Part shown: piece after piece, positions 5,779 to 42,407 of the stretch | How positions within the stretch are numbered: the stretch's first letter is position 1 | Layout of the letters: every line of letters begins with the position of its first letter | Origin: Faecalibacterium sp. I4-1-79 | GTDB lineage: Bacteria > Bacillota > Clostridia > Oscillospirales > Ruminococcaceae | Reading direction: 5' to 3' | DNA: 64,000 nucleotides | Assembly (NCBI RefSeq): GCF_023347235.1 | Contig: NZ_CP094467.1 | Location: forward strand, 558,001 to 622,000 | The notes under the pieces: model-generated | Seen by the model: the letters and a program-made list of their open reading frames with translations, nothing else | Databases searched by the model: none | Told to the model about the DNA's origin: nothing | Position numbers and translations under genes: made by a program

Positions 5779-7179
5779 ATGAAGTTTTTCGAAGTGGTTC
5801 CCAGTGAACTTTTCTCGCCGTTGGCTTCGCCCAACCGTATTTTATATGCGGATGCACTGGACGTACTGTACGCAGCATACCAAGAAAACTTGAAAATACG
5901 GGAAGATGTCTTGTATTCAATGCTGCGCGGCAGGCTGGAGCAGGAACTGGCGGATGCTACGTTTGAAGATGAAGACATTGACGAAGAGGAACTGAGGGAT
6001 ATCTCTGGCCGCGCCCGTTTTTTGATCCGCAAGCTGTGTAGTAAGGGGTGGTTTGAGAAGGAACGTGGGGATGATTTTGAAGAGTACATCACGATTCCTA
6101 ATTACAGCAGTCGCCTGCTGGAACTATTTCATCAACTCAGGGATGATAGTCCGGCTCGTGGATATTCCTATGTGTTCGGAACTTTCTCAGTCTTAAAGAC
6201 CGCCGACGACAGCAACAATGCTTACGATAAAATGACGGCTCTCTATAGTGCCTACGATAACACAACGGCGCTGATTAGCTTGTTGCAAATGGTCTATCAT
6301 AATGTGAAGCATTATTTTCAGACGCAGATCGATATGCAGGATGTCAACCAGGTGCTGGCTGCACACTTTAACGACTTCGGACAAAAGGTTGTGGAGGCAT
6401 ATATCCGTCCGCTGAAAATCAAAGATTCAGTGCCGAAGTATCGTGTGCCCATTCAGTCTGTGCTTAGGCGCTGGGAAGAGGATGATACCTTGCTGATGGC
6501 GATGGCAAATGAAGCATTGCGTGATAAGCGGGGCAAGACATTGGAAGACTGCCGTGCCGATCTGCTGAGGAAAATTTTCTGGATCGAAGAACGCTATGAC
6601 AATTTAGAGAAGGACTATCTTGAGGAAATTGATACGCAGGTCCGGCGCTATACCAGAGCAGCAACACAGAAAATCGAGAACCTGACGAACCGAGATCAAA
6701 GCGTGCGCGGCAATTTGAATGTTTTGCTGACGGCACTGTCCAGAAACCGCAGGGCGGCTGAGCTGGTGGACCAGATACAACTGGCATTTCAATTGTATGA
6801 GCAGTCTTTTTTGTCAGAAAAAAGTCTGTGGTACCGTAAGCGCCCCGAAAAACGGACAAAAACCGCGTCGGTGCTGATACAAGATGATCAGGCACCGAAT
6901 ACGGAAGAACAGGTCAGAGCGGCACAGTTACTGCAATCGAAATATGGCCGGGCAGCAGTAAATGCTTACGTGCAGGGATGGCTGGGAGACGCTGACATTC
7001 GTTGCTCGGAGGAGCTCTCGCTTGAAGAGGACAAGGATTATATCATGAGTTTACTGGCAATCCTTGGAAGCAAGGATGCATCTGCCGGTTATGTGGTCCA
7101 GGAACTCGATGGCATTTTTTGCAAAAATGGCTATTCGATCCCGCAAATGCAGATCCGGAGGAAGGAGAAGAAGCCGTGA
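5779..7179 (+). CDS. jetA: Wadjet subunit JetA (kleisin-like, DUF5716 type)
   Basis: 466-residue acidic, mostly helical protein starting MKFFEVVPSELFSPLASPN. By position and pattern it is the MukF/kleisin-like subunit of a Wadjet SMC complex, which recognises and cuts circular plasmid DNA. It is expected to bridge the JetC ATPase heads and bind JetB. The start is set by the shared repeat leader with an AAGGTGG site. It overlaps jetB by 4 bp. The domain appears closest to the DUF5716 form rather than DUF3375 or DUF2397, pointing to the type III variant of Wadjet; this subtype call is from memory and not certain. Confidence 0.87.
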   Translation: MKFFEVVPSELFSPLASPNRILYADALDVLYAAYQENLKIREDVLYSMLRGRLEQELADATFEDEDIDEEELRDISGRARFLIRKLCSKGWFEKERGDDFEEYITIPNYSSRLLELFHQLRDDSPARGYSYVFGTFSVLKTADDSNNAYDKMTALYSAYDNTTALISLLQMVYHNVKHYFQTQIDMQDVNQVLAAHFNDFGQKVVEAYIRPLKIKDSVPKYRVPIQSVLRRWEEDDTLLMAMANEALRDKRGKTLEDCRADLLRKIFWIEERYDNLEKDYLEEIDTQVRRYTRAATQKIENLTNRDQSVRGNLNVLLTALSRNRRAAELVDQIQLAFQLYEQSFLSEKSLWYRKRPEKRTKTASVLIQDDQAPNTEEQVRAAQLLQSKYGRAAVNAYVQGWLGDADIRCSEELSLEEDKDYIMSLLAILGSKDASAGYVVQELDGIFCKNGYSIPQMQIRRKEKKP

Positions 7180-7823
7180 ATTTTGATTTTGTTACCAATG
7201 CAACGGCAAAAGAACTGGAACAGTTCAAATCTGTCTGCAATCAGCTGCTCAGCCGCACATACATTGTGCGAACCATCTACCAGCCGGGAAAAGGCAGGGT
7301 GGACAACCCAGAATATCTTTTTCTATCACGGCACTATGAGGCTGTACAGGAGTACCTGAGCCTGCTGGACTGGGATTTGCGCAGGGATGAACTGAACGGA
7401 TACTTTTATGTGTTGAACACAGACGAGGCTAACCGTTGCAACCTCAATAAAAAAGAAACGGCGATTTTGCTGGCATTACGGCTGATCTACGAAGAAAATA
7501 TGGAGCGTTTGGGTTTGGAGCAGGATGCCGTGTGTACTGTGCGGGATGTGCTGGAAAAAGTGGTGACCGACTATCCCGTTTTTCCGGCTAAGCCGAATAT
7601 GGAAGAGGTCAAACGCGCGTTTACGGTACTGGAAAACCATTCTGTGATTCAAAGACTGGAAGGAAAATTCAACCAGGGCAGCTGCAGGATCGCAATATTG
7701 CCCACCATTCTCTCTGCGGTCTCCAGCGAAAAGCTGAACTTGGTGGTGTCTGTTTTGAAAAAGGAGGAAACAGATGAAAAAGCTGAAGAAGATCCTGCTG
7801 ATCAACTGGCTCTATTTCAGTAA
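7176..7823 (+). CDS. jetB: Wadjet subunit JetB (MukE-like, DUF4194 type)
   Basis: 215 residues from a GTG at 7176 that overlaps the jetA stop (GTGA), with a strong GGAGGAAGGAGAAG site upstream. Winged-helix, MukE-like subunit that pairs with the JetA kleisin; the pattern NLNKKETAILLALRLIYEE is typical of DUF4194 proteins. It overlaps jetC by 50 bp, so the four genes are translationally linked. A longer start at 7119 lies inside jetA and has no better site. Confidence 0.87.
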   Translation: MNFDFVTNATAKELEQFKSVCNQLLSRTYIVRTIYQPGKGRVDNPEYLFLSRHYEAVQEYLSLLDWDLRRDELNGYFYVLNTDEANRCNLNKKETAILLALRLIYEENMERLGLEQDAVCTVRDVLEKVVTDYPVFPAKPNMEEVKRAFTVLENHSVIQRLEGKFNQGSCRIAILPTILSAVSSEKLNLVVSVLKKEETDEKAEEDPADQLALFQ

Positions 7824-10800
7824 GGAACTGATTGAAGTGGGCGACATCAATTTTCTGACAGGCAAGAACGGCGCCGGAAAGTCAACGGTCATCGATGCAC
7901 TGCAGATCGTACTGCTGGGCGAGACCAACGCCCGCAACTTTAATCAGGCGGCCAACGAAAAATCGCAGCGCACACTGGAAGGCTATCTGCGCGCCGACAT
8001 GGATGATAACAGCCCGTATTCCCGTCGTGGTAAGGACTTTTCCACCTATATTGTCTGCGAATTTCAGGATGAGATGGAGGGCAGCAGCTTTGTGACGGGC
8101 GTTACCTTTGACTGCCGCAGCGATGGAAGTTACCGTGATACATTCTTTATTTACACGGGGACACTGCCGGAAAATTGCTTTATTGAGCAGGGTGAGGCAA
8201 TGGAGACTTCTGCACTTCGCCGTTTTTTGAAGCAGAACTATGCACGGGCAGAATTTTACGATACTCAAAAAGAGTATCGCTGCAACATGCTTGCAAAGTG
8301 GAACGTCCACAACGAGCAGGTCTTACGGATGATGAAGAAGGCTGTTTCGTTCCGGCCAATTGTGGATATCCAAAAATTTATTACGGAGAACATCTGTGAT
8401 ATTCCGGATAAACCCAATATTGAGCTGATGCAGCAAAACATCCGGGATTATAAACGGCACGAATTGCTGGCGCAGCGTCAGCAGGAAAAGCTGGATGCGC
8501 TGCAGCAAATCAGCAGGCTGTATCAGGAGATGAACCAAGCCATAGACCGCTGCCAGATCCAGAAGTTTCTGGTACGGTGGGCCGAAAAAGAAGCTGCGCA
8601 GACAGAGATCGACCAGAGGGAATTGGAACGAACTGAATGCAAGGAGAACCTTGCAAATGTGAATGAGCAACTGAAGGAGCTTGAGCGGCAGATCGAACAG
8701 AAAGAAACGCGCCGCAGTGAGCTGGAGCTGGCCTGTAGGCAGAGCAACGTTTTCCAGGAGGAAGAGCGTCTGCTCAACACGGAAAAGGCTCTGAGAGATG
8801 AGCAGAAAAAGCTGGAACAGGGTCTGCAAAATCTTGAAGTGGAGATTAAGCGGGAAGCACGGCATTTGCAGAGATTCTGTGGGGAGATACAAGAACTGGA
8901 ACCGGAAGAACTTCTCATACCGGTGCAGGAAGCGGCGAACACTGTGCAGAAAGCATATGCTGTATTTACTGGGGACGAGAAGGGATTGTTTGCCCGGCCT
9001 GTGGAGTTGTTTGAAACGGGGCAGCAGGCAGCGGCTGAATTGTCGGATGCTGTCCGCAGTGCGGCTCATAAAACAGAGGATCGTATTGTAGAGCTGAAGA
9101 AGCAAGCCGACCAGAAAAGTGCGGTGCTTGCAAATCTGCGCAGGAACATCAAAGATTATCCCCATGGGCTTCTGCTGTTCAAAGACCGGCTGGAAAAGGA
9201 TCTGGCGGATAAAACGGGGCATGCGGTTCCCGTTTATATTCTGGCTGATGTGCTGGAAATGGCAGATGAGCGCTGGCGTGGAGCGGTAGAAGGCTACCTA
9301 AATAACCAGAAATATTATCTGCTGGTGGAGCCGGGACGTTATCAGGATGCACTTAACATTTACGACCGGCTGAAGCAGGAAGCAGAGTACCGTGCGTTTG
9401 GTCTGGTAGATATCGGAAAACTGCGGGAAAAAGAAACACTTCGCCCGCTGCCCGGCAGTCTGGCAGAAAAGGTGGAGACAGAAAACAAGCTGGCACGCAG
9501 CTATGTGGACTATCTTCTGGGTCGGGTGATATGCTGCGACACGGCAGAACAGTTGCGCTGCTATAAGACGGCAATTACGGCAGAGGGAATGCTGTATCAG
9601 GGCTATGTGGCCCGCGCACTTCGGAAGGGCTGGATGGAAGACGCCTTCATCGGGCGGCGTGCGGTGCAGCTCCGCATCGACCATCTGGAAAAGGAACTGG
9701 CCTGTCTGCAGGAAGAGCTGCGGCATTGGCAGCCGCTCCAGAAGCAGCTGACCGGCCTGCAGGAGCCGCTTTTTACCCAAAGATTTGTCCGAATCGATGT
9801 GGCGCAAAAGCAGGAGGACTACCAGCGCGTCCAGACGATCATCAAGGAAATCGCAGAAGTCAAAAATCAGCTTTCCCAGTTGAATCTGTTCTGGTTGGAT
9901 GAGCAGCGACGCATCATTGAACAGTTGAAAGAAGAAATCCTTGCATTCAATAAGGAAAAAGATGCGAAAAATGTGCAAAAAGGGAAGTTGGAAGACCGCA
10001 TCCATCAGCTGGAATATGAGATCTTGCCGGAAAAATACCAACGGTATGAGGCCATCGAAGATGTTTTGAACGAGGAGTTCACGAAGGAATACCGAGAAAC
10101 CATCGGCGTTCCCCGCTATCGGCAGGAGCTTGTCCGCTTGAAAAAGGCAGATGTCATCCGCAAAAACTTCGGCGACAGTTTGGCGCAGAGCACAAAGGCG
10201 ATGGACGGGGCTCAGAAGAAACTGCTTGCAGCACGCAGAGAATATGCAGAACGGTTCAAACCCTGTGCATTCCAGATCGAGGTGATGGATAACACCGAAT
10301 ACGAGGAAGAACGGCGTACTCTGCAGGAAAGCGAGCTGCCCCGATACAAAGAAAAGATCCGGGCGGCACGGGAAAGCGCAATGGAGCAATTCCAGAACGA
10401 TTTCCTTGCCAAACTGAAATCCAGCATCGACCAGGTGCAAGACCAGGTGCACAATCTGAACAAGGCCCTGCGCCAGGCACAATTTGGCACAGACAAGTAC
10501 CAATTCCGCGTAGGGCCAAACCCGGATTATCTGGATTACTATAACATGATCACGGCAGATGAACTGATGGAAGGCGAATCCGGTCTATTCGCACTGCCCT
10601 TTCAGCAAAAATACGGCCCATTGATCGAAAAACTGTTCAGCCAGATCACAATGGCAGACGATACGCAGCTCAATGTCCGCAAACAGAGCGAACTGCAGGA
10701 GAATATCGTCCGCTATACAGACTTCCGGACGTATCTGAAGTTTGATTTGGAAACGACCGATCAGAACGGTTCCAAGCAGCTGCTTTCTCAAACACTGAAT

Positions 10801-30461: not shown

Positions 30462-31214
30462 TTATAGCGCACCGGTGCGCCCGATGGAGCAGACTGTGCC
30501 GCCCATACCGAGGGTCGTTTTGATGCCGACCCCGCCGTAGGGCGCGAAAGAAAGCAACGCGTTCCAAAGCTCCAGAAGCGGCGGCGCAAGATGCGCTTCG
30601 ACCGTTACGCTGCCCTGAAAAGACGGAATGCGCGTTTCCTTCAGCGGATAACGTGTGGTGCGCAGGTTGTAGTCCACGATATGCAGCCCCTGCTGCAAAG
30701 CCAGCAGCGCATCATCATCCGTAAGAGCGTATTCCGGGAAAGCGGTGTTCCAATGCGCGGTCAGGCTTTGCAAAAGCAGCGTTTCCTGCGGAAAAATAGC
30801 ATAGCGGCCGGACTGCTTGAAGGCGCAGGGCGACAGAAAAACGAGCTTTGCGCGGCTTTCATCGAAGGAACGACCAAAGCGGATCAGCTCGGCGGCGGAG
30901 ACTGCCGGGGAAACACGGACTTCTGTGACCGGCAGGGGCGATTCGTGCAGCGGGATCTCCTTTACGGACGTCAGAAGGGGAGAGACGCTCTGCCGGACCG
31001 TCTCGTTCAGCAGATTGACCGTCCAGACCAGCGCCTGCTTTTCCGGCGAAAAATGCAGGAAATGCGCAATGGGGTGCTCCCCTTGCAGATGCAGGGCATC
31101 GCCAACGTCTGCCGGAAGCTGTGCCATCAGCCAGCCATACAGGCGGTAGGCCCATGCCTGCGGGACGCGTACCCCCGTGGGCGGCGTTAAAACAAGCTGA
31201 AACTGCTGGATCAT
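30462..31214 (-). CDS. cas6: CRISPR repeat endoribonuclease Cas6
   Basis: 250 residues from ATG 31214, overlapping the csm5 stop (ATGA). Two RAMP-like halves; the C-terminal glycine-rich loop GGVGIKTTLGMGG is the Cas6 hallmark. It should cut the CRISPR transcript within the repeat to leave an 8-nt 5' handle (ACGGAAAC if the usual rule holds here). Last gene of the csm operon, so transcribed with the effector. The catalytic His/Lys set could not be assigned by eye. Confidence 0.9.
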   Translation of the reverse strand: MIQQFQLVLTPPTGVRVPQAWAYRLYGWLMAQLPADVGDALHLQGEHPIAHFLHFSPEKQALVWTVNLLNETVRQSVSPLLTSVKEIPLHESPLPVTEVRVSPAVSAAELIRFGRSFDESRAKLVFLSPCAFKQSGRYAIFPQETLLLQSLTAHWNTAFPEYALTDDDALLALQQGLHIVDYNLRTTRYPLKETRIPSFQGSVTVEAHLAPPLLELWNALLSFAPYGGVGIKTTLGMGGTVCSIGRTGAL

Positions 31215-32311
31215 AGGATACTCACCTCGCAATACCCATAGGGATAGAACTGGTCGCGAAAGCGGGCGTATTTCATGGTGTGCGGGGAGACGCCTTTTTC
31301 GATATCGCACTCATGCCCATGCTTGTGGAACATCTGTGTCATTTGCGCTGCCGTCCAGCGCAGCCCCTTTTCTTCGCCCAGATAGGGGTACGCCAGCGAC
31401 TTGGCAAAAAAGCCGGAGCCGCCGCCAAGGATCAGGTGCGGCTGCTGCGGCAGGTTGACGGCACCGCTTGGCGCGGTGAAGTGCCTGCTGTATGTCTGCT
31501 CGTAATAAGTATCAAACTGCTGGATGGCATCCATAAGGGACTCTTTGGTAATACGCCCCTTCAGCACCGATTGATCCAGCGTCAGCTTAAAACGAACCTT
31601 AGCGCCGGGGATCGCGCATTCCCGGAACAGGGGAAGGCCTTTCTTGCTGTTCTTTGGAAAGGAACCGTCCGGAAGTACATCGAATTTTCCGCAAAGAGCC
31701 ATCCGCTCATTCGGGATGGGCTTACTGTCGGAGACCTGAACACCCCGGAACAGGCTGTTGACCGCATCGGAAGCGATGCTGCCGTCCTCCTGAAGGCGCA
31801 GATGCAGCTGATTGATGTATTTTTCCTCCGGGAATGCGGCGTTATCGTCTGACGCAAGGCTGTGCCCGGTGCTCTGGTCGGCCCGAACGGCCTGCAAGAG
31901 CCATACGGTGCGCAGTGCACCCTTGAGGCTGCTGCCGGGAATGTACGCCCTGTCATGGGCATCCCGCTGGAAGGTGTAGAGATTTTTCGGCGGATTTGTA
32001 ACGGCATCTCCCGCCTCGATCGTATAGCGGGTCAGCGCGTTCAGATCCGTATCAGAAACGCCGCAGTCCTCGGTCAGAAAATCCCGGAGATTGGACTGAT
32101 TGCAGAGCATGAACTGGATGTACCGGTCGATCAGCCCGCGATCTGTCAGAAAGGTGAAAAATTTCTGTTCGTCCAGCAAGGAGGCTCTTCCGTTGCGGGT
32201 GCAATACAGGTACTCTGCTTTCGTGTACATGCGGCCGTCACCGATGAACAGGGGCGACCGCACGGTCAGGATCAGGTCGAATATTTGCAGATGATCCTGC
32301 TGTTTCATCAT
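31211..32311 (-). CDS. csm5: Type III-A effector subunit Csm5
   Basis: 366 residues from ATG 32311 (ATGATG, overlapping the csm4 stop; GGGGGTG upstream). RAMP protein that caps the 3' end of the crRNA in the Csm complex. Typical features: MKQQDHLQIFDLILTVRSPLFIGDG, AYIPGSSLKGALRTVW and LGGGSGFFAKSL. Position after csm4 and before cas6 supports the call. Confidence 0.92.
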   Translation of the reverse strand: MMKQQDHLQIFDLILTVRSPLFIGDGRMYTKAEYLYCTRNGRASLLDEQKFFTFLTDRGLIDRYIQFMLCNQSNLRDFLTEDCGVSDTDLNALTRYTIEAGDAVTNPPKNLYTFQRDAHDRAYIPGSSLKGALRTVWLLQAVRADQSTGHSLASDDNAAFPEEKYINQLHLRLQEDGSIASDAVNSLFRGVQVSDSKPIPNERMALCGKFDVLPDGSFPKNSKKGLPLFRECAIPGAKVRFKLTLDQSVLKGRITKESLMDAIQQFDTYYEQTYSRHFTAPSGAVNLPQQPHLILGGGSGFFAKSLAYPYLGEEKGLRWTAAQMTQMFHKHGHECDIEKGVSPHTMKYARFRDQFYPYGYCEVSIL

Positions 32312-33273
32312 AAGGTCACCCCCATCAAGATCGGTTTGGAATAACGGTATGCCGGGTGCGTGTCGGTCAGGCTGACATCGTACAGCGCCCCCTGATAGGG
32401 GTGCTGCAGCACAGAGCCGGCGGCAAGGGCATACTGCGTTTTTTTCTTCAGCGGCGTTTCCACGCAGTCCGAGGCCATAAAGCCGCTGCGGCGCACCAGC
32501 TGGAAGGAGGCGTCTTTTAAAGCGCTGTCCAGCTCGTTCGCCTGCGGCAGGCTGGTGGTCAGCAGCAGATAGGGCGCACGGTTGGCAGCAAGCGCACGGC
32601 GCAGCCACTTGGTCTGCGCGTCAGGGGGCGTATTCAGGCAGAGCTTTTGCACTACATGGAATTTGCCGTAACCGGTGCTGACCCTGCCGCCGATCCCGGT
32701 GACGCCCAGCCCTTCCAGCAGGGCGTGCAGCTTTTTGTCCTGTCCGCTTTCCGAGACGCCGCAGATGAAATACAGCCCGCAGTTCGGTGCAAAGCGGAAC
32801 AGCCCTACCTGATAAGGCTTGGTGTCTCCCTGCGCGGGGATATTTGCCTTGGTCTGCTCGTAATGCGTGCCGAAGCTTTCCGGCTGGTCATCGGGCGTAA
32901 AATGCCCTGCGTGCAGGCTTTTGGCATAGCGGTCAAAGGCCAGCACAGGGATCCACGCCATCTTTTTGACTTTTTTGCGCAGGGTGGTCTCCACCTCCTC
33001 GGTGGATTCCGATGCAGCGATGGGTTTGGGCAGATAGAACGTTTTGTCGTACCACGGCATCGTATCGCTGAACAGGAGTTTGCCCTGCCGGACGCTTTCG
33101 CATAGCCGCTCCAGCGCGGCTTCCCCCTGCTGGACGAGGGTCTCATGGCAAAGCGCAGAAAACAGGGTATCTGCCCGCAGTGTCTCCTCGGAGGTGTAGA
33201 GCGACAATGCGGAGTCCGAACCGCCGAAATGCACAGCGGTGTCGAACTGAAGCTTAAACAGAAAATAGTTCAT
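32308..33273 (-). CDS. csm4: Type III-A effector subunit Csm4
   Basis: 321 residues from ATG 33273 (GAGGTGG upstream), overlapping csm3 by 20 bp. RAMP protein that binds the 5' handle of the crRNA and contacts Cas10. Start LFKLQFDTAVHFGGSDSALSLYTSEETLRADTLFSAL and the glycine loop GIGGRVSTGYGKF are typical. An upstream in-frame start inside csm3 is not needed. Confidence 0.92.
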   Translation of the reverse strand: MNYFLFKLQFDTAVHFGGSDSALSLYTSEETLRADTLFSALCHETLVQQGEAALERLCESVRQGKLLFSDTMPWYDKTFYLPKPIAASESTEEVETTLRKKVKKMAWIPVLAFDRYAKSLHAGHFTPDDQPESFGTHYEQTKANIPAQGDTKPYQVGLFRFAPNCGLYFICGVSESGQDKKLHALLEGLGVTGIGGRVSTGYGKFHVVQKLCLNTPPDAQTKWLRRALAANRAPYLLLTTSLPQANELDSALKDASFQLVRRSGFMASDCVETPLKKKTQYALAAGSVLQHPYQGALYDVSLTDTHPAYRYSKPILMGVTL

Positions 33274-33925
33274 AGCTGTCCACCTCATCAAAGAGGGCTT
33301 TCAGGCTGTCAAGTTCCACCGGTGCGCCGTAGTTTTTCAGCGTAAAGTTTTTCAGGCTGACGCGGCCGCTGCCGCGGGAGCCGTGACCGCCCAGATAATC
33401 CCATTGCAGCAGCTTCATGCCCTTGGCCAGCAGGGCAAGATCTTCCTCCACCTGTGCCGGGTCGGTTACATCGTAAACAATGCTGACGCCAAACACTGCA
33501 CCGGCGATCACGCGCTCGATCTGGCGGGGGGTTGCCTGCGCGTTTGCACGGGAGATCGTGTTTTCGGTCTTGACCTCGGTCACGCGCACGCCCTTGTTGG
33601 AAAGTGCCTCTGCATTGGTCAGAAAGGCGTCTGCAAATTGCAGGCGGGAGCGGCGCACCGGCTCGGCGGAGCCGAACAGGCGCAGAATGCGTGCGTCGTC
33701 CGCACTGAGATCGGGCATATTCTCAATATCCTGACAGAGGCTGCGGGCCAGCAGGGTGCGCAGCTTGCCCTTCAGGCTGCTTCCGGGCACGATGGGCAGA
33801 CCGGTATAGGGGTCGCGCACCACCGGGCTGTCCACAGCACCGATGGCAGAAAACGCAGAGGAACCGCCGATGTGCATACCGGTGCACACGATCAGATCGC
33901 ACCGGATCAGAATTTTTCCATACAT
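33254..33925 (-). CDS. csm3: Type III-A backbone subunit and target RNase Csm3
   Basis: 223 residues from ATG 33925 (AGGAG 8 nt upstream; a TTG two codons earlier is less likely). Forms the crRNA-bound filament and cleaves target RNA every six nucleotides. The catalytic Asp is in the AIGAVDSPVVRDPYTG loop, which is intact. PIVPGSSLKGKLRTLL is the conserved RAMP motif. Begins 2 bp after csm2. Confidence 0.94.
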   Translation of the reverse strand: MYGKILIRCDLIVCTGMHIGGSSAFSAIGAVDSPVVRDPYTGLPIVPGSSLKGKLRTLLARSLCQDIENMPDLSADDARILRLFGSAEPVRRSRLQFADAFLTNAEALSNKGVRVTEVKTENTISRANAQATPRQIERVIAGAVFGVSIVYDVTDPAQVEEDLALLAKGMKLLQWDYLGGHGSRGSGRVSLKNFTLKNYGAPVELDSLKALFDEVDSYELFSV

Positions 33926-33927
33926 AA

Positions 33928-34470
33928 TCAATTCTCCTTGCCGCCAAGGTAGCGGTGGAAAGCGACCAGCGCTTCCATGTAGTGTGCAAAACGGATCAGA
34001 TCCGCACGGTCGGTGGAAATGCCCTTGAGGTATTCCCGCAGATGCGCTTGCGAAATAAAGTCTTTCATGGGATAAACTTTATCTTTACCGCTGCTCTTTT
34101 CTTTGTCACGGCCATTGCTTTCTCCTCTGTCACGGTCGCTGCCCTCTTCTTTGTTGCGGCTCTTGTTCTCTCCTGTGTCACGGCCATACTCGTAGGCTAC
34201 GCGCACCCGCATCAGGTTGAGTTTGACCACACTGTCCGGTTTCAGCTTGTCCTCAGTGCGGATGCTTTCGTCATTATAGATATCGGTCACAAGGCTCAGC
34301 AGATTGCGGATCTTGCTGGTGGTTATGGTCGTGCCGCTGCTTATCAGGGCGCGCATAATGCGCTCGGCCTCGTCCACATAATTCTCCGGCACCTTTCTCG
34401 GTACGGTCTCCGGCGGGAGCGCCTTCTGCGGGTCTTTTCCGTCCCGGCTGTTGTTATTCCATTCTGCCAT
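33928..34470 (-). CDS. csm2: Type III-A small subunit Csm2 with a charged insert
   Basis: 180 residues from ATG 34470, overlapping cas10 by 17 bp. Small helical subunit of the Csm backbone: YVDEAERIMRALI ... TTSKIRNLLSLVTDIYND at the N-terminal side, LREYLKGISTDRADLIRFAHYMEALVAFHRYLGG at the end. Between them, about residues 96-134, is a Lys/Glu/Asp/Arg/Gly/Ser-rich low-complexity stretch with near-repeats (GENKSRNKEEGSDRDRGESN). Usual family length is about 120-150, so this insert is an addition. Confidence 0.88.
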   Translation of the reverse strand: MAEWNNNSRDGKDPQKALPPETVPRKVPENYVDEAERIMRALISSGTTITTSKIRNLLSLVTDIYNDESIRTEDKLKPDSVVKLNLMRVRVAYEYGRDTGENKSRNKEEGSDRDRGESNGRDKEKSSGKDKVYPMKDFISQAHLREYLKGISTDRADLIRFAHYMEALVAFHRYLGGKEN

Positions 34471-36865
34471 CTGTGTCGCCACCCTTTCTGTTCTGATACA
34501 CATAAATGTAGATCGCGGTGATGAGCTGGTGACGCTGCACGGCATCAAAGGCCCAGTCGTCCATCATGCTGTGAGAAAATTGTTCGTAGAGCGGATAGTC
34601 CGGCGCGTTCTTTTCGGGGGAGAGCCGCGCCAGCAGATAGGCATACCGCGCAAGGTTGATGCGGTCGTTCTCCGCTTCCCGCAGCAGTGCCAGCAAATTG
34701 TAGAGCATGGAATTTCCGCGCGGGGTCTCGCCTTTGTCTGCGCAGCTGCGGTCATAGGCTTGGAAGAAGCGCTGCAAGCAGCCAACCTTTTCTTCCAGCA
34801 CCTTTGTGCGGAAGGTGTCCCACGCATAGGTATGCCCCTGCTCCGGCTGCACCAGCAGATTGCCCTTTGCATCCCGGACGGCTTTGCGCTCCGGCGTAAA
34901 CAGCGCCACGGCATTTTTACCGGGCAGATGCTTGGCGGCTTCCTCCAGTGCGGCGGTTTCCTCGGCAGAAAGCCGGATGGGGTAGTGGGGGTCGAAGATG
35001 CCGATGCCTGCGCTGAGAGTCAGCGCCCCGCAGGAAAAGGCGGTCAGATTGCGCTGGATGCGCTGCGCGGCTTCCAGAACATCGTTCCATGCGCCCACAA
35101 GGAACACGTCATCGCCGCCGGCATAGACGATACTTACCTGCAAACCGTCCAGAATGCCGTTGATATAGCCCTTGAAAAACAGGGACATCTGCCGGGAGAA
35201 CGCCGAGGTGCGGGACAGGTTGACATAGCGCATCCGCCGCACCGGGTCTTTTTCGCTCTCCTGCTCAAAACCGGAGATGAACGCGTGGCCGAGATTGTCC
35301 ACATCCATGCGGCAGACCGCAATGCGGCGCACGCCCGCAGCCTGCTCGGCCAGTTCATCCATGCTGTTTTTGGCGGCGTAATCGCCCACATACAGGTTGG
35401 TGGTGGAGGGAAGGGGGCTGTACGGGGTATTTTTGGTGTACATCCGCAGGACCGGCTCGCCGGAGGAAAGGCGCTTTTGCGCCGAAGCCCGGTCGGTCGT
35501 GGTCAGGTAGACGCTGCCGCCGTCCAGCGTGGGCAGCGTGCAGTCATCGGCTGCCGAGGGCTGACGGCTTACCACCAGCACGCTCCTGTGCTGAATTTTG
35601 TCAGAAAACTCCACAAACAGCCTGCACCACGGGCAAAGCTCGTCCGCAAGGGCGGCGCTGGTGCCGCACACCTTGCATTCCCGGCCATCCGGGTAAGCGG
35701 CGGCATCGTTCAGCAGCCGCAGATCTTCGGCGGTGTAGCGATGGAACTTGTGCTGTTCCAGCAGGCGGTTCACCCGGCGGAACAGCTCCTTATAGGGGCT
35801 GCTCTGGGCGGGGGTGTTGGTCAGGTCGTTGCCGGAGCAGGGCGTCCATGCGTTTGCCAGAAACAGCTGGGTGCCGAACTGCTGTTGCAGCCAGCGGTTG
35901 AACTGCCGGTTCCACCGGGTCAGGGTATCGGCCACGGCGGCGGTGTTGGGCAGCAGCACATAGCAGTGCCCGCCGCCGCTGTAAATCAGGTTGGCGCGGG
36001 ACACGCCGCACCCGGCCAGAAGCTCGTCCAGATAGTGCTCCATGAACAGTTCCAGAAAGAACGACCGGCTGCGCAGGGAGCGCAGGGCGTTTTCGGTGCG
36101 GACGGTATAAAGGAACTTCTGGATGCGAGAAAAATCGGCGGTGTAAAGCAGAAAAACGCCCTTCCGGCAAAAATCGTTCTTTTGCTCAAAAAGCGTTTTA
36201 CGCAGGTCGGTGATGTGGTTCGCCTGCACATATTCGCTAAGGCACGCCGCAATGGCTGCGGTGGTCTTGGCGTGGTCGAACAGGGAAATATCCGCGCCAT
36301 CCCCGGGATAGATGCTGGACGGGAAACAGCCAAGCTGCGTTTCCAGCAGCCCCAGCAGCTTGCCAAGCTGCTCCGGCTGGGGCTGCAACTGCGGCAGCTG
36401 CGCTTCCAGCGTGCGCACGGCCTCGGCGTAGACGGCAGCGGAAAGCGGCTGGGACTTTTGCGGCAGTTTCAGGCTGCCGTCCTGCGGCTGCGCGGGCATC
36501 ATCCAGCCGGGGTGGGAACCGTTCAGGTGGGTGAACACTGCATCCAGCGGAAGCTCCCGCCGGTAGGCATCGCTTTCGCCTTCGGTCTCCCGGCGGTCAG
36601 CCGCGCCGGAAAGCAGGTTGGCCAGATAGACCAGATACGCCGGGGAATCGGCTGGCAGTGTTTTTGCAGCACCACGCAGCGCGGCGGCGTGGTGGTAACG
36701 CACACAGTCCAGAACCGGGGTCCAGTCTGCGCCGGACAAAACGCCGTGCAAAAACTGGCAGCCCTGTTCACTGTGGCTGCCGCGCTGCCCACCGGCACGG
36801 TACACCGCTTTGCCGGTGTCGTGCAGCAGCCCGCCATAGGTGGACTGCAGGGTGAGAACGTTCAA
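34454..36865 (-). CDS. cas10: Cas10/Csm1, cyclic-oligoadenylate synthase subunit
   Basis: 803 residues. Start set to TTG 36865 because AAAGGAG lies 8 nt upstream; no suitable ATG is nearby. The HD nuclease motif is at the very start (LLHDTGK, His15-Asp16). A zinc-ribbon lies mid-protein (CKVCG ... CPWC), and the catalytic palm has YAGGDDVFL (Gly583-Gly584-Asp585-Asp586), needed to make cyclic oligoadenylates after target RNA binding. Both activities look intact. The cOA signal matches the presence of two CARF proteins encoded beyond array 1. Confidence 0.95.
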   Translation of the reverse strand: MNVLTLQSTYGGLLHDTGKAVYRAGGQRGSHSEQGCQFLHGVLSGADWTPVLDCVRYHHAAALRGAAKTLPADSPAYLVYLANLLSGAADRRETEGESDAYRRELPLDAVFTHLNGSHPGWMMPAQPQDGSLKLPQKSQPLSAAVYAEAVRTLEAQLPQLQPQPEQLGKLLGLLETQLGCFPSSIYPGDGADISLFDHAKTTAAIAACLSEYVQANHITDLRKTLFEQKNDFCRKGVFLLYTADFSRIQKFLYTVRTENALRSLRSRSFFLELFMEHYLDELLAGCGVSRANLIYSGGGHCYVLLPNTAAVADTLTRWNRQFNRWLQQQFGTQLFLANAWTPCSGNDLTNTPAQSSPYKELFRRVNRLLEQHKFHRYTAEDLRLLNDAAAYPDGRECKVCGTSAALADELCPWCRLFVEFSDKIQHRSVLVVSRQPSAADDCTLPTLDGGSVYLTTTDRASAQKRLSSGEPVLRMYTKNTPYSPLPSTTNLYVGDYAAKNSMDELAEQAAGVRRIAVCRMDVDNLGHAFISGFEQESEKDPVRRMRYVNLSRTSAFSRQMSLFFKGYINGILDGLQVSIVYAGGDDVFLVGAWNDVLEAAQRIQRNLTAFSCGALTLSAGIGIFDPHYPIRLSAEETAALEEAAKHLPGKNAVALFTPERKAVRDAKGNLLVQPEQGHTYAWDTFRTKVLEEKVGCLQRFFQAYDRSCADKGETPRGNSMLYNLLALLREAENDRINLARYAYLLARLSPEKNAPDYPLYEQFSHSMMDDWAFDAVQRHQLITAIYIYVYQNRKGGDTDGRME

Positions 36866-36956
36866 AATACCATCTCCTTTACAAATTGTGGAAGAGTTGC
36901 ACAACAAACGAAGAATATAGTTGTATATTTTGTGAGAGATGCTTTGATTTGGCTCT

Positions 36957-36985: not shown

Positions 36986-37095
36986 GCCATGGCAGAGAAA
37001 ATGCCGCAGCAGCTCTGTTCATAGAGAAAAAGCCCACGAAAACCGAAAAGTTAAGGCACGCAAAAGAAAAACTCCGCACCATTTTTGATGCGGAG

Positions 37096-37802
37096 TTTTT
37101 TGCCCCCTTGCGGGGATAAGTTGAAATAATTCAGCGAAGTAAAATCCGGAATCATCTTCTTTATGTTTCCGTCCCCTTGCGGGGAGAACCCTCTCAGTCA
37201 CGGCTTACGCCGTGCCAGCTCCCCCGAAAGGGGGAGCTTAGTACAAGGTAAGTGGCAGCTGGAAAAGCTCTCCCTTCGGGAGAGCTGGCGCGCAGCGCCT
37301 GAGAGGGTTTTGCGGGGATAAGTTGAAATCCGAAGAAAAGCGTCTCCGCGCAGAGACTGAAAAGTTTCCGTCCCCTTGCGGGGATAAGTTGAAATGGTGA
37401 TGATATCAGAGTCATGCCTCTGATCAAAGGGTTTCCGTCCCCTTGCGGGGATAAGTTGAAATCTAAACATCTCTGTTGTGGGTATCGGTAACTGCGGATG
37501 TTTCCGTCCCCTTGCGGGGATAAGTTGAAATTATGCTGCGTTTGGGCTAATCGTAAGAGAGTTCCATGTTTCCGTCCCCTTGCGGGGATAAGTTGAAATT
37601 TCAATAAGACTTATAGCGAAGACGAAGTTAAAGAGTTTCCGTCCCCTTGCGGGGATAAGTTGAAATACGTGCGCAAGTCGTGCGCACGCTGGAAAGGAGC
37701 GGTTTCCGTCCCCTTGCGGGGATAAGTTGAAATAACAAGTTGCATCCGCTCCTGCATCTGGTTACCCATTGTTTCCGTCCCCTTGCGGGGATAAGTTGAA
37801 AT
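37096..37802 (-). CRISPR. CRISPR array 1, 9 repeats including one degenerate and one interrupted
   Basis: 32-bp repeat; on the plus strand it begins GTTTCCGTCCCCTTGCGGGG and ends ATAAGTTGAAAT. Repeats: 37096-37127 (degenerate 5' part), 37165-37184 plus 37312-37329 (interrupted by a palindromic element), 37364, 37431, 37500, 37568, 37635, 37702, 37771-37802. Spacers are 34-37 bp. On the minus strand the repeat ends GGAAAC, the usual 5' handle for type III, and the degenerate repeat is at the left. So transcription runs right to left from a leader at 37803 onward, toward the cas operon. Confidence 0.97.
37185..37309. mobile_element. Palindromic MITE-like element inside a repeat of array 1
   Basis: 125 bp between two copies of TTGCGGGG (37177-37184 and 37310-37317), the likely target duplication. 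Ends AGAACCCTCTCAG and CTGAGAGGGTT are inverted. Inside are nested hairpins (CACGGCTTACGCCGTG; CAGCTCCCCCGAAAGGGGGAG; AGCTCTCCCTTCGGGAGAGCT) around a 25-bp core (37240-37264). No coding capacity. Similar ends occur at 45332-45494 and 56551-56688. Confidence 0.85.
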
Positions 37803-37992
37803 AGCAAAGCTGTTCTAAGAAAAAGAGAAAAATACTTGATTTCAGGGCAGCTTTCACAATTCCAAGACCAATATACCACAACCATACGAAAAATAAAAGA
37901 GCATTTTTGGCAGGAGGCTGGAAAAGCGGGTGCGAGCCGCCCACCGAAATGGAGAAACAGGCGGCTGAATGGGGGCAGCCGCACCGGGAAGT
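37803..37992 (-). promoter_or_regulatory. Leader of CRISPR array 1
   Basis: AT-rich sequence right of the last perfect repeat, starting AGCAAAGC, as does the array 2 leader (AGCAAAC). It should hold the promoter for pre-crRNA on the minus strand; TATATT near 37870-37875 is a candidate -10. The 37900-37992 part is GC-rich, with nothing recognised. Confidence 0.65.
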
Positions 37993-38361
37993 TCAGGGCG
38001 AGCCATAGCGGCGGAAGCCTGCAAAGGCGAAGATGCTGCGCTTCAGGGTGCTGCCGTCCGGGCAGGTGGTCTCCTGGCTCTTGCGGCGGGAGCAGGCGGC
38101 CAGCGTGGGGATGCCCGCGGCTTCCAGCCGCTGGACTACCCGGTACACAAAGGTGCACTCGCCCTGACAGAGCACGGCGTCCGGGTTAAGGTGCAGGATG
38201 TGGTCGGCGTATACCGTGGCAAGGGAGTCCAGCGCGGCCTCGTCGGCGGCGGGGTCGATGGCGGGAAAAGCAAGATCGACCACCGGGCCGTAGCGCTGCG
38301 CCGCCGCCTGCTGCTCGGCGCTCCACAGGGCGTAGGGGTGGTTGGAAAAGTTGATGAACAT
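37993..38361 (-). CDS. Small protein of a CRISPR-neighbourhood family, function unknown
   Basis: 122 residues from ATG 38361 (GGGAGGT upstream), starting MFINFSNHPYALWSAEQQAAA and containing AVLCQGECTFVYRVVQRLEAAGI and AACSRRK. I have an impression of similar MFINFSNHP-type proteins beside type III loci in other Firmicutes, but no assigned function. Mixed alpha/beta with no signal or span; a small nucleotide-binding fold is possible. It lies between leader 1 and a terminator, on the same strand as the arrays. Confidence 0.75.
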   Translation of the reverse strand: MFINFSNHPYALWSAEQQAAAQRYGPVVDLAFPAIDPAADEAALDSLATVYADHILHLNPDAVLCQGECTFVYRVVQRLEAAGIPTLAACSRRKSQETTCPDGSTLKRSIFAFAGFRRYGSP

Positions 38362-38383
38362 AGCGTGTACCTCCCGGTTCTTA

Positions 38384-38421
38384 AAAAAAGGCTCCCGTCC
38401 GCACAAAACGGACGGGAGCGC
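38384..38421 (-). terminator. Terminator after the glycine-zipper gene
   Basis: Minus strand GCTCCCGTCCG, loop TTTTGTG, CGGACGGGAGC, then CTTTTTTT. It separates the 64-aa gene from the 122-aa gene. Confidence 0.88.
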
Positions 38422-38432
38422 TGGCGCGGGGC

Positions 38433-38627
38433 TCACCGCTCGTCGATGCGGTGGCCGACGTTGTTGCCGGCCAGAGCGCCGGTAACGCCGCCAACGATGG
38501 CGCAGGGGATGGTGCCGGCAATGGCACCGACAGGGCCGCCCACGGCGATGCCGATGGAAGCGCCCTTCACGGCGCCTGCGACGGCACCGGCTGCGGCGCA
38601 GCCCAGAGTAGAGATCAGCTCAAACAT
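38433..38627 (-). CDS. 64-residue glycine-zipper membrane peptide
   Basis: MFELISTLGCAAAGAVAGAVKG ... then a Gly/Ala-rich stretch with many G-x-x-x-G spacings (GIAVGGPVGAIAGTIP, GGVTGALAGNNVGHRIDER). AAAGGAGG lies 8 nt before the ATG. Such glycine zippers form tight helical hairpins in membranes and occur in bacteriocin-like and pore-forming peptides as well as in outer-membrane anchors. Its own terminator follows. Located between two CRISPR arrays and divergent from the CARF operon, so it might be a membrane effector, but no family link to known type III effectors was seen. Confidence 0.7.
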   Translation of the reverse strand: MFELISTLGCAAAGAVAGAVKGASIGIAVGGPVGAIAGTIPCAIVGGVTGALAGNNVGHRIDER

Positions 38628-38716
38628 GTTTTTCGCCTCCTTTCACCTACCAAAAGCCCACGGCAGGGGCGCAGTTAAGGCGGAAAAAAATAAATCTGCA
38701 TAAATTTTTTAAGCCA

Positions 38717-38781: not shown

Positions 38782-39390
38782 GTGCTAAAGACTTATATCA
38801 CCACCGTGCCTTTGCAGGGAAAGCTGGACCCTATGCTGTACCAGCGGGAGCGGGCAGAGGCCCCCACGGCCACCTGCTTTCCCATCGTGCAGGTAATGCG
38901 GGATACCCTTGAACCCGGGGACACGGTGCGGCTGCTGGCCATCCGGCAGGAAAACGCCGATACCGCCCGCAACTATCAGCGCCTGCTGGAAGAACTGGCG
39001 CAGCTGGGCATTGCAGAAGCGCAGGTGGAGCCGGTGCCCCTGCCCGAGGATCAGCGCCCGGAAACGCTGATCGGCCTGTGCCGGGATCTGGTGGATGCCC
39101 TGCCGCAGGTCACCCGGGTGTATGCCTGCATCACCTACGGCTCCAAGAGCATCCCGGTGGTCACGCTGACCGCGCTTAGCTGCGCCGAAGCCACCCACAC
39201 CGAGCTGGAGGTGGGCGGCGTCTATTATGGCGAGGTCAAGCGGGAGAACGGAAAGGTGGTGGGTGCGCGGCTTTACGAAATGTCGGCACTGTACCAGCTG
39301 GCCGGGCTGGTGGGCACCATGCGGGACAGCAAGACCGCAGAAGAGGTGTTCCGTCAGCTGATCTGGATGAGCCAGCACCGGGAGGACTGA
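38782..39390 (+). CDS. Stand-alone CARF-domain protein
   Basis: 202 residues. The pattern resembles TM1812/Csx1-type CARF domains: a Rossmann-like start (YITTVPLQGKLDP), the ligand-loop-like ACITYGSKSIPVVTL (Thr118-Lys122) and EVGGVYYGEVKRENGKVVGARLYEMSALYQLAGLVGTM, matching the YYG ... L region of the family. No HEPN or other effector domain follows, so it is either a sensor/regulator or a ring nuclease for cyclic oligoadenylate. First gene of a tight three-gene operon (6-bp gap to the sigma-like gene). Spaced AAAAGGAG before the ATG. Confidence 0.75.
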   Translation: MLKTYITTVPLQGKLDPMLYQRERAEAPTATCFPIVQVMRDTLEPGDTVRLLAIRQENADTARNYQRLLEELAQLGIAEAQVEPVPLPEDQRPETLIGLCRDLVDALPQVTRVYACITYGSKSIPVVTLTALSCAEATHTELEVGGVYYGEVKRENGKVVGARLYEMSALYQLAGLVGTMRDSKTAEEVFRQLIWMSQHRED

Positions 39391-39396
39391 ACTGCC

Positions 39397-40401
39397 ATGA
39401 AGAATGATAAAGTATGGGATAAGATCGATGCTTCGCCCCTGCTGCAGCTGCCGCCGGAGCAGCGCAAAGCGCTGCACGAGGCGGGGGATGAACAGTTCCG
39501 CACCCTCTGGGGCGATTGCTTTGCCGCTGCGCTGACCCTTGGACAGCCGGTGGACGGCGGGGACTTTTGCCGCATCTTCCTGAAGGCGTTCGACTTCTGG
39601 GTGCCGAAGCCCGGGCAGACCTTCAGCGCCTATCTGCGCAGCGCCCTGAAGCACCAGAACGCCCATGACGCGCAGCAGGAACAAATGGCGGTGACCGGCT
39701 TTGGCCGGGAGACCAACCGCAAGATCAAAAATGCCTTGGCTTATATGGCGAAGAACCAGATCACCGAGGAAAAGCTCTGCCACGACCCGGAAAAAGAGCA
39801 GCTGGTGGCCGATATTGCCGGGGTCGGGGTCAAGACCCTGCGGGAGACGCTGCGCAACAAGCAGTCGATCCTCAGCTTGGACGGCACCGACGGCGAGGAG
39901 ACGGCACTGGAAACGCGGGTCGCCGCCCCTGCGCAAAGCGTGGAGGAGCAGGCCGAGCAGACCGGTGAGCTGCTGGCATGGCTGCACCGCGGCATCGGGC
40001 TGATGAGCTTGCAGCAGAAGGAGCAGTACGGCAAGACTGCCGGCCCGCTTTGGAGCAGCGTACTGCTGGGCTTTTTGCGCAACAGGGACGTGCTGCCCCC
40101 GGCAGAGGATACCCCCGCGCGGCTGGCAAACTGCGATGATCTGCGTCCGCTGGAACAGGACAACTGCCTGTGGGACATCCTGCTGCTGCATAAGTATGTG
40201 GCGTTTACCGTTCAGCCGCCCTATGCGCCCAAAGCGCTGGAATGCGCCGCGCTCCACGCCCTGCTGGACCCGGAGCGCAACCCGGCGCAGGATAAGACCG
40301 TGGCAGAATTTCTTGGTGTGAGCAGGGCGGCGGTGTCGCAGCGGCGCAAAACATGGCAGCAAAAACTGGTGCAGATGAAAACGGAACAGGAGGACGGATA
40401 A
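39397..40401 (+). CDS. Sigma-70-like protein inside the CARF operon
   Basis: 334 residues with the order of an alternative sigma factor: region 2-like helices at about 57-92 (FLKAFDFWVPKPGQTFSAYL), region 3-like at about 107-165 (LVADIAGVGVKTLRETLRNK ... SLD) and a C-terminal helix-turn-helix at about 298-325 (KTVAEFLGVSRAAVSQRRK). A longer linker (165-290) is unusual. It could be a true sigma factor or a derived DNA-binding regulator. It lies between two CARF genes with gaps of 6 bp and 1 bp, so expression is coupled to cOA sensing. No sigma gene of this kind is part of standard type III-A loci. Confidence 0.7.
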   Translation: MKNDKVWDKIDASPLLQLPPEQRKALHEAGDEQFRTLWGDCFAAALTLGQPVDGGDFCRIFLKAFDFWVPKPGQTFSAYLRSALKHQNAHDAQQEQMAVTGFGRETNRKIKNALAYMAKNQITEEKLCHDPEKEQLVADIAGVGVKTLRETLRNKQSILSLDGTDGEETALETRVAAPAQSVEEQAEQTGELLAWLHRGIGLMSLQQKEQYGKTAGPLWSSVLLGFLRNRDVLPPAEDTPARLANCDDLRPLEQDNCLWDILLLHKYVAFTVQPPYAPKALECAALHALLDPERNPAQDKTVAEFLGVSRAAVSQRRKTWQQKLVQMKTEQEDG

Positions 40402-40402
40402 G

Positions 40403-41845
40403 ATGGGACGCAATGTTTTACTGCTATATATGAGCATTTTCAACAAGAACCCGAAGATCCAGACCCAGACCCAGACCAACGAGGGCGCGGTGCGATATCT
40501 GATAGAGGAAGGAGAGACCCCGGACTGCATTCTGGCACTGTGCAGCGAGAGGGTGCGCAAAGAAGCGAAAGAGATGCCGGACGGCAGCACCCGCACCACG
40601 CTGGAATACTTCCGGGATAGCTTTCTGCCCAAGGTGCACATCCCGGCAGAACGGCTGGTGGTGATCGAGGTGCCGGACAGCATGGACGAAGAAACACAGT
40701 TTCAGGCTATCTCGCAGCTGCTGGAAAAGATCGAGACAGAGGACACCCTTTTTGTTGACCTTTCCGGCGGTTTGCGGGACGTGGCCATGCTGCTGGTGAT
40801 CGCTGCCCGCTGCATGCGGGACCTGCGCAAAGTGCAGACCCGCCGGGTGATCTATGCGGAACTGCGCGGGGGAGAGTCTATCGTTCGCGACCGCACCCAG
40901 CTGTATGGTCTGTTCGACTTTGTTACCGCCATGGATCAGTTCTTCTCCACCGGCACAGCGCAAAAGCTGGAGAACTATCTGCGGAGCGAGGGCGAAAAAG
41001 ACCCGGTGCTGCACACGCTGCTGACCCGCATCAACCAGTTCTCGGAAGATCTGGCACTGTGCCGGGTGCGGAAGCTGAACGACGATTTGAACCAGATCGC
41101 TCAGGCGCTGAAAGAAACGCCCAAGAAGAGCCAGAACCTGACCGACCTATTCTTCCAGATGCTGAAAGACCGTTTCAGCACCGAGTTTGCAGAACTGCTT
41201 TCCTCCGGCGAAAAGGCGCTGCCTGCACTGGTGAGCTGGTGCGCTGGCCACGGGATGTACCAGCAGGCGCTGACCCTGCTGTGCGAGCAGATGCCGGAAT
41301 ACGTCTGCCAGCATCTCTTTGTGCAGCCCACCCCCAAAGGCTGGGACTATCTGGCAGATCAGAAGCAGAACAGGGGCAAGCCGTGGGTGTACCCGCTGTT
41401 CCATTTCCATTTCTGCCGGTTGACGCTGTTGCAGAAGGAATATCCCTATACAACAGACCTGCGCCTGACCCTGAGCCGGGACGATGCAGAAGGCAATATG
41501 CTGTTCGGTGTAGCAAATGATACAGAAATGCACGACTATCTGGATATGGTGCTTGCCTCTGACCAGCTGGTCATCGACCCTGCCATCCGCCCGCAGCTGG
41601 AGCAGGCTGCCCTGCACTACCAGTGCGTGATGCAGTACCGCAACCAGATCAATCACGCCAGCGCCAACGACCTGGGCTTACAGAGCGAGCGCGTTCGGCC
41701 GCTGGATACCGAGCACATTAAAGAGACCCTGCAAAAGATCACCGTCTACCTGCATGAGATCCGCCCCTTGAAGCGGAACGTCCCGCAGGACATCGAGGCA
41801 ATTCCCGTTGATGCGGCCATCCCCGCCGGAACGCCCGCCCGCTGA
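40403..41845 (+). CDS. CARF-HEPN ribonuclease, Csm6/Csx1-like
   Basis: 480 residues from ATG 40403 (AGGAGG 9 nt upstream). N-terminal CARF domain (about 1-190) with the ligand-binding motif DLSGGLRDVAML (Asp119-Asp126) and VIYAELRGGE; helical linker; C-terminal HEPN domain with the RNase motif RNQINH (Arg413 ... His418, an R-x4-H). Binding of cyclic oligoadenylate made by Cas10 should switch on RNA cleavage. Length and layout fit Csm6/Csx1 proteins. Third gene of the operon, 1 bp after the sigma-like gene. Confidence 0.88.
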   Translation: MGRNVLLLYMSIFNKNPKIQTQTQTNEGAVRYLIEEGETPDCILALCSERVRKEAKEMPDGSTRTTLEYFRDSFLPKVHIPAERLVVIEVPDSMDEETQFQAISQLLEKIETEDTLFVDLSGGLRDVAMLLVIAARCMRDLRKVQTRRVIYAELRGGESIVRDRTQLYGLFDFVTAMDQFFSTGTAQKLENYLRSEGEKDPVLHTLLTRINQFSEDLALCRVRKLNDDLNQIAQALKETPKKSQNLTDLFFQMLKDRFSTEFAELLSSGEKALPALVSWCAGHGMYQQALTLLCEQMPEYVCQHLFVQPTPKGWDYLADQKQNRGKPWVYPLFHFHFCRLTLLQKEYPYTTDLRLTLSRDDAEGNMLFGVANDTEMHDYLDMVLASDQLVIDPAIRPQLEQAALHYQCVMQYRNQINHASANDLGLQSERVRPLDTEHIKETLQKITVYLHEIRPLKRNVPQDIEAIPVDAAIPAGTPAR

Positions 41846-41872
41846 CCCTAAAACAGAAGAATCCTGAAAAGC

Positions 41873-41918
41873 AAAGCCCCTCCGCACTGGTTCATACCAG
41901 CAGCGGAGGGGCTTTTTT
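41873..41918 (+). terminator. Terminator of the CARF-sigma-Csm6 operon
   Basis: AAGCCCCTCCGC / GCGGAGGGGCTTTTTT. Its T-run overlaps the degenerate first repeat of array 2. Confidence 0.9.
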
Positions 41919-42407
41919 GTCCCCTTACGGGGATAAATTGTAATCTGACCAGTTCACCAACGACACGCCCGACAAGGTGTTTCCGTCCCCTTGCGGGGAG
42001 AACCCTCTCAGTCACGGCTTACGCCGTGCCAGCTCCCCCGACGGGGGGAGCTTTCGCAGCTGCCGTTACCCTGTACTAAGCTCTCCCTTCGGGAGAGCTG
42101 GCGCGCAGCGCCTGAGAGGGTTTTGCGGGGATAAGTTGAAATCTCTGCTATCGTTCTCGTGTCAAAGACTGCAATCGAGTTTCCGTCCCCTTACGGGGAT
42201 AAGTTGTAATGGTATCCTTCGGTAACCGTGGCTGCAGTAGCAAAGTTTCCGTCCCCTTGCGGGGATAAGTTGTAATCTGCGCCATATCAAGGCATGGAAT
42301 ATGAGCATCGTTTCCGTCCCCTTGCGGGGATAAGTTGTAATTTACTACAGGTATTGACATCAAGAAAGCCCTTGAGTTTCCGTCCCCTTGCGGGGATAAG
42401 TTGTAAT
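41913..42407 (-). CRISPR. CRISPR array 2, 6 repeats including one degenerate and one interrupted
   Basis: Same 32-bp repeat as array 1 but ending TTGTAAT instead of TTGAAAT. Repeats: 41913-41944 (degenerate), 41979-41998 plus 42125-42142 (interrupted), 42179, 42245, 42310, 42376-42407. The repeat at 42179 has TTACGGGG. Spacers are 33-36 bp. Read on the minus strand from a leader at 42408. The right half of the interrupted repeat ends GAAAT like array 1, unlike its neighbours. Confidence 0.96.
41999..42122. mobile_element. Palindromic MITE-like element inside a repeat of array 2
   Basis: 124 bp at exactly the same nucleotide of the repeat as in array 1, between TTGCGGGG copies at 41991-41998 and 42123-42130. 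Outer arms are the same as in array 1 and in the same orientation, but the ~24-bp core (42053-42077, TTCGCAGCTGCCG ...) is the reverse complement of the array 1 core with a few changes. Confidence 0.85.

Follow-up and report, generated by a model that had tools for sequence, protein, structure and literature searches.

A CRISPR-Cas locus of Faecalibacterium sp. I4-1-79 raises the question of how a palindromic element came to interrupt a repeat at the identical base in each of its two arrays. Two elements may have struck this base separately, or one interrupted repeat may have been passed from array to array. We suggest that the second history is the probable one: the insertion into a type III-A repeat belongs to a single lineage of the element, and the interrupted repeat was inherited and moved between the arrays by recombination between repeats.

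The locus and its interrupted repeats

The window, which is the whole stretch of 64,000 nucleotides analysed here, carries the type III-A gene set on the minus strand: Cas6 (30462..31310), Csm5 (31211..32608, with an uncertain start), Csm4 (32308..33291), Csm3 (33254..33931), Csm2 (33928..34548) and Cas10/Csm1 (34454..36907). Array 1 (37096..37802) and array 2 (41913..42407) flank plus-strand genes for a CARF protein (38782..39390) and a Csx1/Csm6-like CARF-HEPN protein (40403..41845). Two further ORFs between the arrays, 37969-38703 and 39397-40401, have no match in Pfam, PADLOC or NCBIfam at E 0.001. Adjacent cas1/cas2 genes are missing from many type III loci, and the window's own genome gives a single Cas1 match, at 1.54 Mb beside another array. 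That distant array (L164, 1534000-1553000 of the own genome) has 35 counted copies of a different repeat, ATTTCTATCCACGCCCTCCGCGAGGAGGGCGAC, which occurs in two core versions, CCGCGAGG and CCTCGCGG.

Both arrays of the window are built of a 32-base repeat, GTTTCCGTCCCCTTGCGGGGATAAGTTG(A/T)AAT. Among 31 genomes of the genus, one per species and including the window's genome (G000), this repeat is matched in five, namely G000, G008, G013, G018 and G030, and nine arrays were read in them. Three features point to the left end of the arrays as the trailer: the left-most repeat is degenerate in 9/9 arrays, a minus-strand terminator-like hairpin (37067..37100) adjoins the left end of array 1, and the repeat on the minus strand, ATTTCAACTTATCCCCGCAAGGGGACGGAAAC, ends in the handle-like ACGGAAAC, which presumably resembles known Csm handles. 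The minus strand would thus be the crRNA strand, with the leader of array 2 at its right end. Both flanks of array 2 are conserved between G000 and G018 (96% identity on the right, 93% on the left), so that the orientation cannot be read from them and depends on the handle and on the degenerate repeat at the left end; array 1 shows no similarity between these two genomes in its right flank. The trailer repeat is a T-run fused to the repeat and starts with TTTTTTG or TTTGTTG in all nine arrays; in array 2 (41913..41944, minus strand) the start is TTTTTTG. At 37067-37127 and 41870-41944 the trailer repeat abuts a hairpin, as if array and terminator were fused, the hairpin of array 1 being a terminator-like call and that of array 2 seen by eye.

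The interrupted repeat of array 2 occupies 41979-42142, and the break, after GTTTCCGTCCCCTTGCGGGG, is filled by a palindromic element of about 120 bp. The order is GTTTCCGTCCCCTTGCGGGG (41979-41998), a single A, the element GAACCCTCTCAG...CTGAGAGGGTTT (42000..42123, its exact ends ambiguous by 1-3 bases) and TGCGGGGATAAGTTGAAAT (42124-42142). The motif TTGCGGGG flanks the element on both sides, and the doubled stretch reaches 9 bp when the A is counted in. In array 1 the repeat at 37165-37329 (minus strand) is split at the identical base and in the same orientation, and the reading of both junctions confirms what the first-pass annotation had noticed. It had also placed the insert in the second repeat from the trailer end of each array, which holds with the trailer side taken as above; in array 2 this is the second from the left of six repeats. 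In their outer parts the two inserts show identities of 97% and 100%, but array 2 has the centre in the opposite orientation to array 1 and to the copy of G030 described below; neither this inversion nor the array 1 type ending within array 2, treated below, had been mentioned in the first-pass annotation. Between the split repeat and the trailer repeat of array 2 lies one spacer of 34 nt (41945..41978, minus strand), which has no match in phages and whose 27-base core has none in viral_contigs. More broadly, 4 of 13 spacers compared with phages and the cores of four spacers compared with viral_contigs gave no match.

A third insert is present in a different species. In G030, which has one of the nine arrays, the insert (L080:9866-10080) sits at the same base and in the same orientation, in the third repeat from the trailer, thus cutting off two trailer-side spacers, and an extra module is nested in the element. 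Over 445 bases, the flank of this array and that of G000 array 2 share 82% identity. All six arrays of G008, G013 and G018 are free of such an insert. The third insert is new; the insertion of IS or MITE elements into CRISPR repeats is already known. Inserts at varied positions in many strains had been named beforehand as the sign of coincidence; with one genome per species, 3/3 known inserts lie at one base and in one orientation.

Two junction patterns, which detect only inserts after the CCCCTT part of a well-kept repeat, matched over the 31 genomes the three CRISPR junctions and one place each in G006, G007 and G030. One of the patterns had the G006 place as its single match beyond the three junctions, by which the shared position exceeds chance. 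The G006 and G007 matches were rejected, since their sequence proved to be of unrelated places, and the G030 match, at 1322884, was left unread. In a wider pattern search of 396 genomes, seven of them of the genus including G000, G000 itself and a single unrelated place were the only matches. From genome_contigs six stretches came back, of which L083 lacks such a repeat when read and the other five were judged by title, and neither junction has a match in viral_contigs; both collections may omit records close to the window's genome.

Several features of the related arrays are recorded here on their own. Array 1 of G018 and of G008 holds repeats of another CRISPR type, GTTTTCGCCCCCTTACGGGG..., together with hybrids (L077:6346-6437; L078 reverse-complement 7151-7503), and a full array of this other type is present in G030 (L080:4484-5643). 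Array 2 of G030 and of G013 ends in damaged repeats (L080:10117-10136; L079 reverse-complement 10209-10300), and its right flank is common to both genomes (93% over 73 bases), unlike that of G000 and G018. These two arrays may have lost their leaders.

The element family and its shared centre

The inserts belong to a family that resembles MITEs in being short, putatively non-coding, bounded by terminal inverted repeats and dispersed in many copies. The element measures about 120 bp, or about 170 bp in G030, and has GAACCCTCTC-type ends in inverted orientation. There are 84 family matches in the own genome, at about 40 places when grouped by eye, and 82 in G030, with strands and parts taken separately in both counts. 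By eye, the copies are mostly intergenic. REP-type palindromic families carry a GTAG/CGTC tag. End motifs number 58 among those listed for the own genome. The search for an autonomous partner covered one interval and found no transposase in the 5 of 8 ORFs scanned. The family also has very short copies (L136, L137, L138) with 35-38 bp between the outer ends and little beyond two inverted ends. Arms are nearly identical in an orthologous pair of copies outside CRISPR (L064/L126) and less conserved in two other pairs; arm identity was therefore rejected as a sign of recency.

The three CRISPR elements have a common centre of 24-25 nt (37240..37264 in array 1, 42054..42077 in array 2), which is absent from 18 other centres compared. 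Scores among the three copies are 0.50-0.58, and none of the 18 other centres reaches more than 0.19 with them, the 21 distinct centres having been extracted by a pattern that leaves out copies with another centre architecture. A centre pattern written from the CRISPR copies matches at up to one mismatch, in the 31 genomes, only these three copies and two places outside the family; places with two mismatches, left unread, are no commoner than in a reversed control. From this private common centre we take the three elements to be one lineage.

A common centre is no proof of a single insertion, since other subfamilies have common centres at several sites. With 17 of 21 centres re-scored, centres recur at different sites in L111/L112 of G030 (0.85), in L042 of G000 and L111 (0.70), in two copies within L113 (0.62) and in L042/L112 (0.61). 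A subfamily can thus insert more than once, and the peculiarity of the subfamily with the CRISPR centre is that it was seen in CRISPR repeats only.

The centres of array 1 and array 2 differ at 5/31 columns, and differ from that of G030 at 6/31 and 6/30. Recent copying of the whole element between the arrays was set aside in view of the 5/31 columns. The divergence between the two G000 centres is close to that between species. Both arrays therefore seem to have carried the element for a long time, and the GAAAT ending of the right half-repeat in array 2, discussed below, would be a later conversion.

Entry of the element and passage between arrays

The repeats of the two arrays can be told apart by one base near their end. 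In G000 all eight uninterrupted repeats of array 1 end in GAAAT (the GTTGAAAT type) and all five of array 2 end in GTAAT. G018 has the same division, with A in 14/14 scored repeats of array 1 and T in 8/8 of array 2. The right half of the interrupted repeat of array 2 (42124..42142, minus strand) has the array 1 ending, GAAAT, and it looks as if at least this half comes from the array 1 type. Within G000 the argument comes down to a single diagnostic base that one mutation could also produce, and beyond this base only 3-4 bases of homology are left for conversion, unless a neighbouring spacer moved too. Repeats of this genus do recombine around the core, as follows from the hybrid repeats in array 1 of G018 and G008, which change type around the hairpin core CCCCTTRCGGGG. 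In a comparison of 74 spacers of the five genomes, a set in which spacers beside repeats with more than nine mismatches may be missing or misread, no G000 spacer resembles that of any other array or species. The only similar pair joins a spacer of G018 array 1 (L077:6180-6213) and one of the other-type array of G030 (L080:4691-4723) with a local score of 25, as if two CRISPR types in two species had sampled related targets.

The first-pass annotation spoke of two independent hits, a view that the private common centre and the array 1 type ending within array 2 do not favour. It had explained the pattern either by strong target choice or by a passage of the interrupted repeat between arrays. 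The same two observations speak for transfer or shared descent, and target choice is not favoured, with room still left for a subfamily that homes to this site.

Hence, we suggest the following course of events. One copy of a common intergenic palindromic element would have entered the hairpin core CCCCTTGCGGGG of a type III-A repeat, in the simplest case a single time. The interrupted repeat would afterwards have been passed on by inheritance and carried from one array of the locus to the other via recombination between repeats. It may have passed between species by descent or by horizontal transfer. In array 2 the interrupted repeat, or at least its right half, would last have been replaced by the array 1 version, and the short centre of the array 2 copy was probably inverted via the inverted arms of the element itself. 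The insertion would persist because it does little harm: the CCCCGCAAGGGG hairpin and the ACGGAAAC handle are left for Cas6, and the element is predicted to fold upstream of them. Against this history stands G018, which is insert-free in both arrays and requires either loss or horizontal spread.

The first event itself may have taken another form, compatible with the later history proposed here. The element may have taken the place of a spacer, linking the 5' portion of one repeat with the 3' portion of its neighbour, in which case the doubled TTGCGGGG would stem from two repeats and would be no footprint of transposition. A duplication of fixed target length is clear in the CRISPR copies only. 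End repeats of at least 6 bp occur in 3/70 entries, one of them a CRISPR copy, that is in 2/67 entries outside CRISPR; 200 shuffles of the 70 entries give a mean of 1.53 and a maximum of 5. The 70 entries include nested pairings of one locus, count both CRISPR copies of the window once, and include in two pairings the CRISPR copy of G030, whose right half is mutated. In an offset test on 46 entries outside CRISPR that have AACCCTCTC-type ends on both sides, identity at the best 8- and 9-base offsets is 0.304 and 0.302 against about 0.25 expected (0.249 for 8 bp; z 2.3 and 2.5); these values are the best of 16 offsets per length, with the three best by z considered for each length. Moreover, in 9/9 G000 loci aligned beside G018 no clean empty site was found. 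These results fit an entry without duplication, but most copies may be old, the same test also responds weakly at 4-5 bp (identity 0.31-0.34, with 0.22-0.23 expected; z 3.4), and a plain duplication of 8-9 bp takes fewer steps. The doubled TTGCGGGG may thus be either a true duplication or the mark of an element bridging two neighbouring repeats in place of a spacer, and we hold the bridging origin to be possible, on the doubtful side of even.

Independent insertion by a site-selective subfamily is less probable. Here the ends of the element or its transposase would recognise the CCCCTTGCGGGG hairpin, and each array would have been hit separately. This would agree with the single base and single orientation of the three inserts and with a target that is a stem-loop, and the half-repeat of G030 ends in GCAAT like its neighbours, as expected when a local repeat is hit. 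Other subfamilies with common centres do occupy several sites, so that the case against independent target choice is not decisive. On the other side, the subfamily with the private centre was not found outside CRISPR in the 31 genomes at up to one mismatch, the two junction patterns, which cover positions of the repeat in part, found no family copy with another centre in such a repeat, and the half-repeat of array 2 is of the array 1 type. We consider separate hits unlikely on this balance.

Retention of the insert as a transcription terminator or insulator is very improbable. The predicted fold is very stable and the insert is near the trailer end in 3/3 cases, as such a role would have it, but no terminator-like call falls in either element of the window on either strand, one is made at the trailer of array 1, and members of the family occur dispersed across the genome. 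Least of all can array 2 have arisen by duplication of array 1 once the insert was in place: the same insert at the same repeat counted from the trailer would suit it, but we reject it, since the arrays have no spacer in common and their trailer flanks are dissimilar beyond the repeat, each having its own G018 counterpart at 93%, by which both arrays predate the split of G000 and G018.

Effect on crRNA and meaning of the insert

On the strand taken as that of the crRNA, the interrupted repeat reads ATTTCAACTTATCCCCGCAA, then the element, then CTCCCCGCAAGGGGACGGAAAC, and the junction rebuilds the CCCCGCAAGGGG hairpin and the ACGGAAAC handle. The handle-side half (41979..41998, minus strand) carries both. 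The interrupted repeat has two copies of the loop and of one arm of the stem, and the trailer-side hairpin and handle are therefore complete. In the predicted fold (z -5.0) the element pairs with itself alone, at 90/90 of its paired bases, and the repeat hairpin keeps its pairs as in the intact repeat. A Cas6 cut at the hairpin base is usual for type III-A. Both the sequence and the predicted fold fit the type III pattern of a hairpin followed by an 8-nt 5' handle, and the trailer crRNA could still get its handle if Cas6 cuts at the hairpin base. The insert had also been described as separating the degenerate trailer repeat and its spacer from the active part of the array. The geometry is as described. 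A functional separation does not follow. The junction keeps a complete hairpin and handle; nor is the degenerate trailer repeat a consequence of the insert, as it is found in 9/9 arrays, six of them insert-free.

A bolder extension of these observations is that a lineage of the element has specialised to live in CRISPR repeats. It would enter only at the hairpin core, where the doubled TTGCGGGG rebuilds the Cas6 hairpin and handle, would leave immunity working and would spread across arrays and species by repeat recombination. We regard this as an improbable, speculative reading.

Related cases are known. A survey (Biomed Res Int 2016, PMC4852346) lists 59 CRISPRs with transposon-split repeats, among them a 180 bp MITE in a repeat of Microcystis aeruginosa NIES-843 whose 5 bp duplication was taken as a sign of recent movement. 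These cases are alike in having an element within a direct repeat. Unlike that MITE, one lineage sits here at one base in two arrays of one species and in one array of another, and its family lacks a clear duplication elsewhere. The MITE HqIRS37 of Haloquadratum walsbyi (PMC3119063) is likewise found in a CRISPR array, but it is reported to sit in a spacer and in a strain without cas genes. Small mobile elements (IS, MITE) interrupting CRISPR loci are also described in PMC10359306, which mentions prophages integrating into direct repeats; its reported insertions lie in cas genes, whereas here a repeat is split and its hairpin preserved. REP-type palindromic repeats, as outlined in PMC3733652, share the many copies and the palindromic form with our family, whose copies are mostly intergenic by eye. 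In the literature covered, mostly titles and abstract openings, no report was found of one lineage at one repeat base across arrays and species, and none of the titles and abstract openings names this palindromic element.

The insert is thus a real and informative oddity, and its kind is already known. Most likely it goes back to an old insertion that repeat recombination has spread, and its position is possibly tolerated since crRNA processing would be left intact. Interrupted repeats are rare fixed markers in arrays with spacer turnover. A marker common to two arrays and two species makes recombination between arrays traceable; where no spacer is in common, such exchange otherwise goes almost unseen. 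Last, if it is true that crRNA processing stays intact, this locus would show a mobile element that resides in a defence locus without breaking it.
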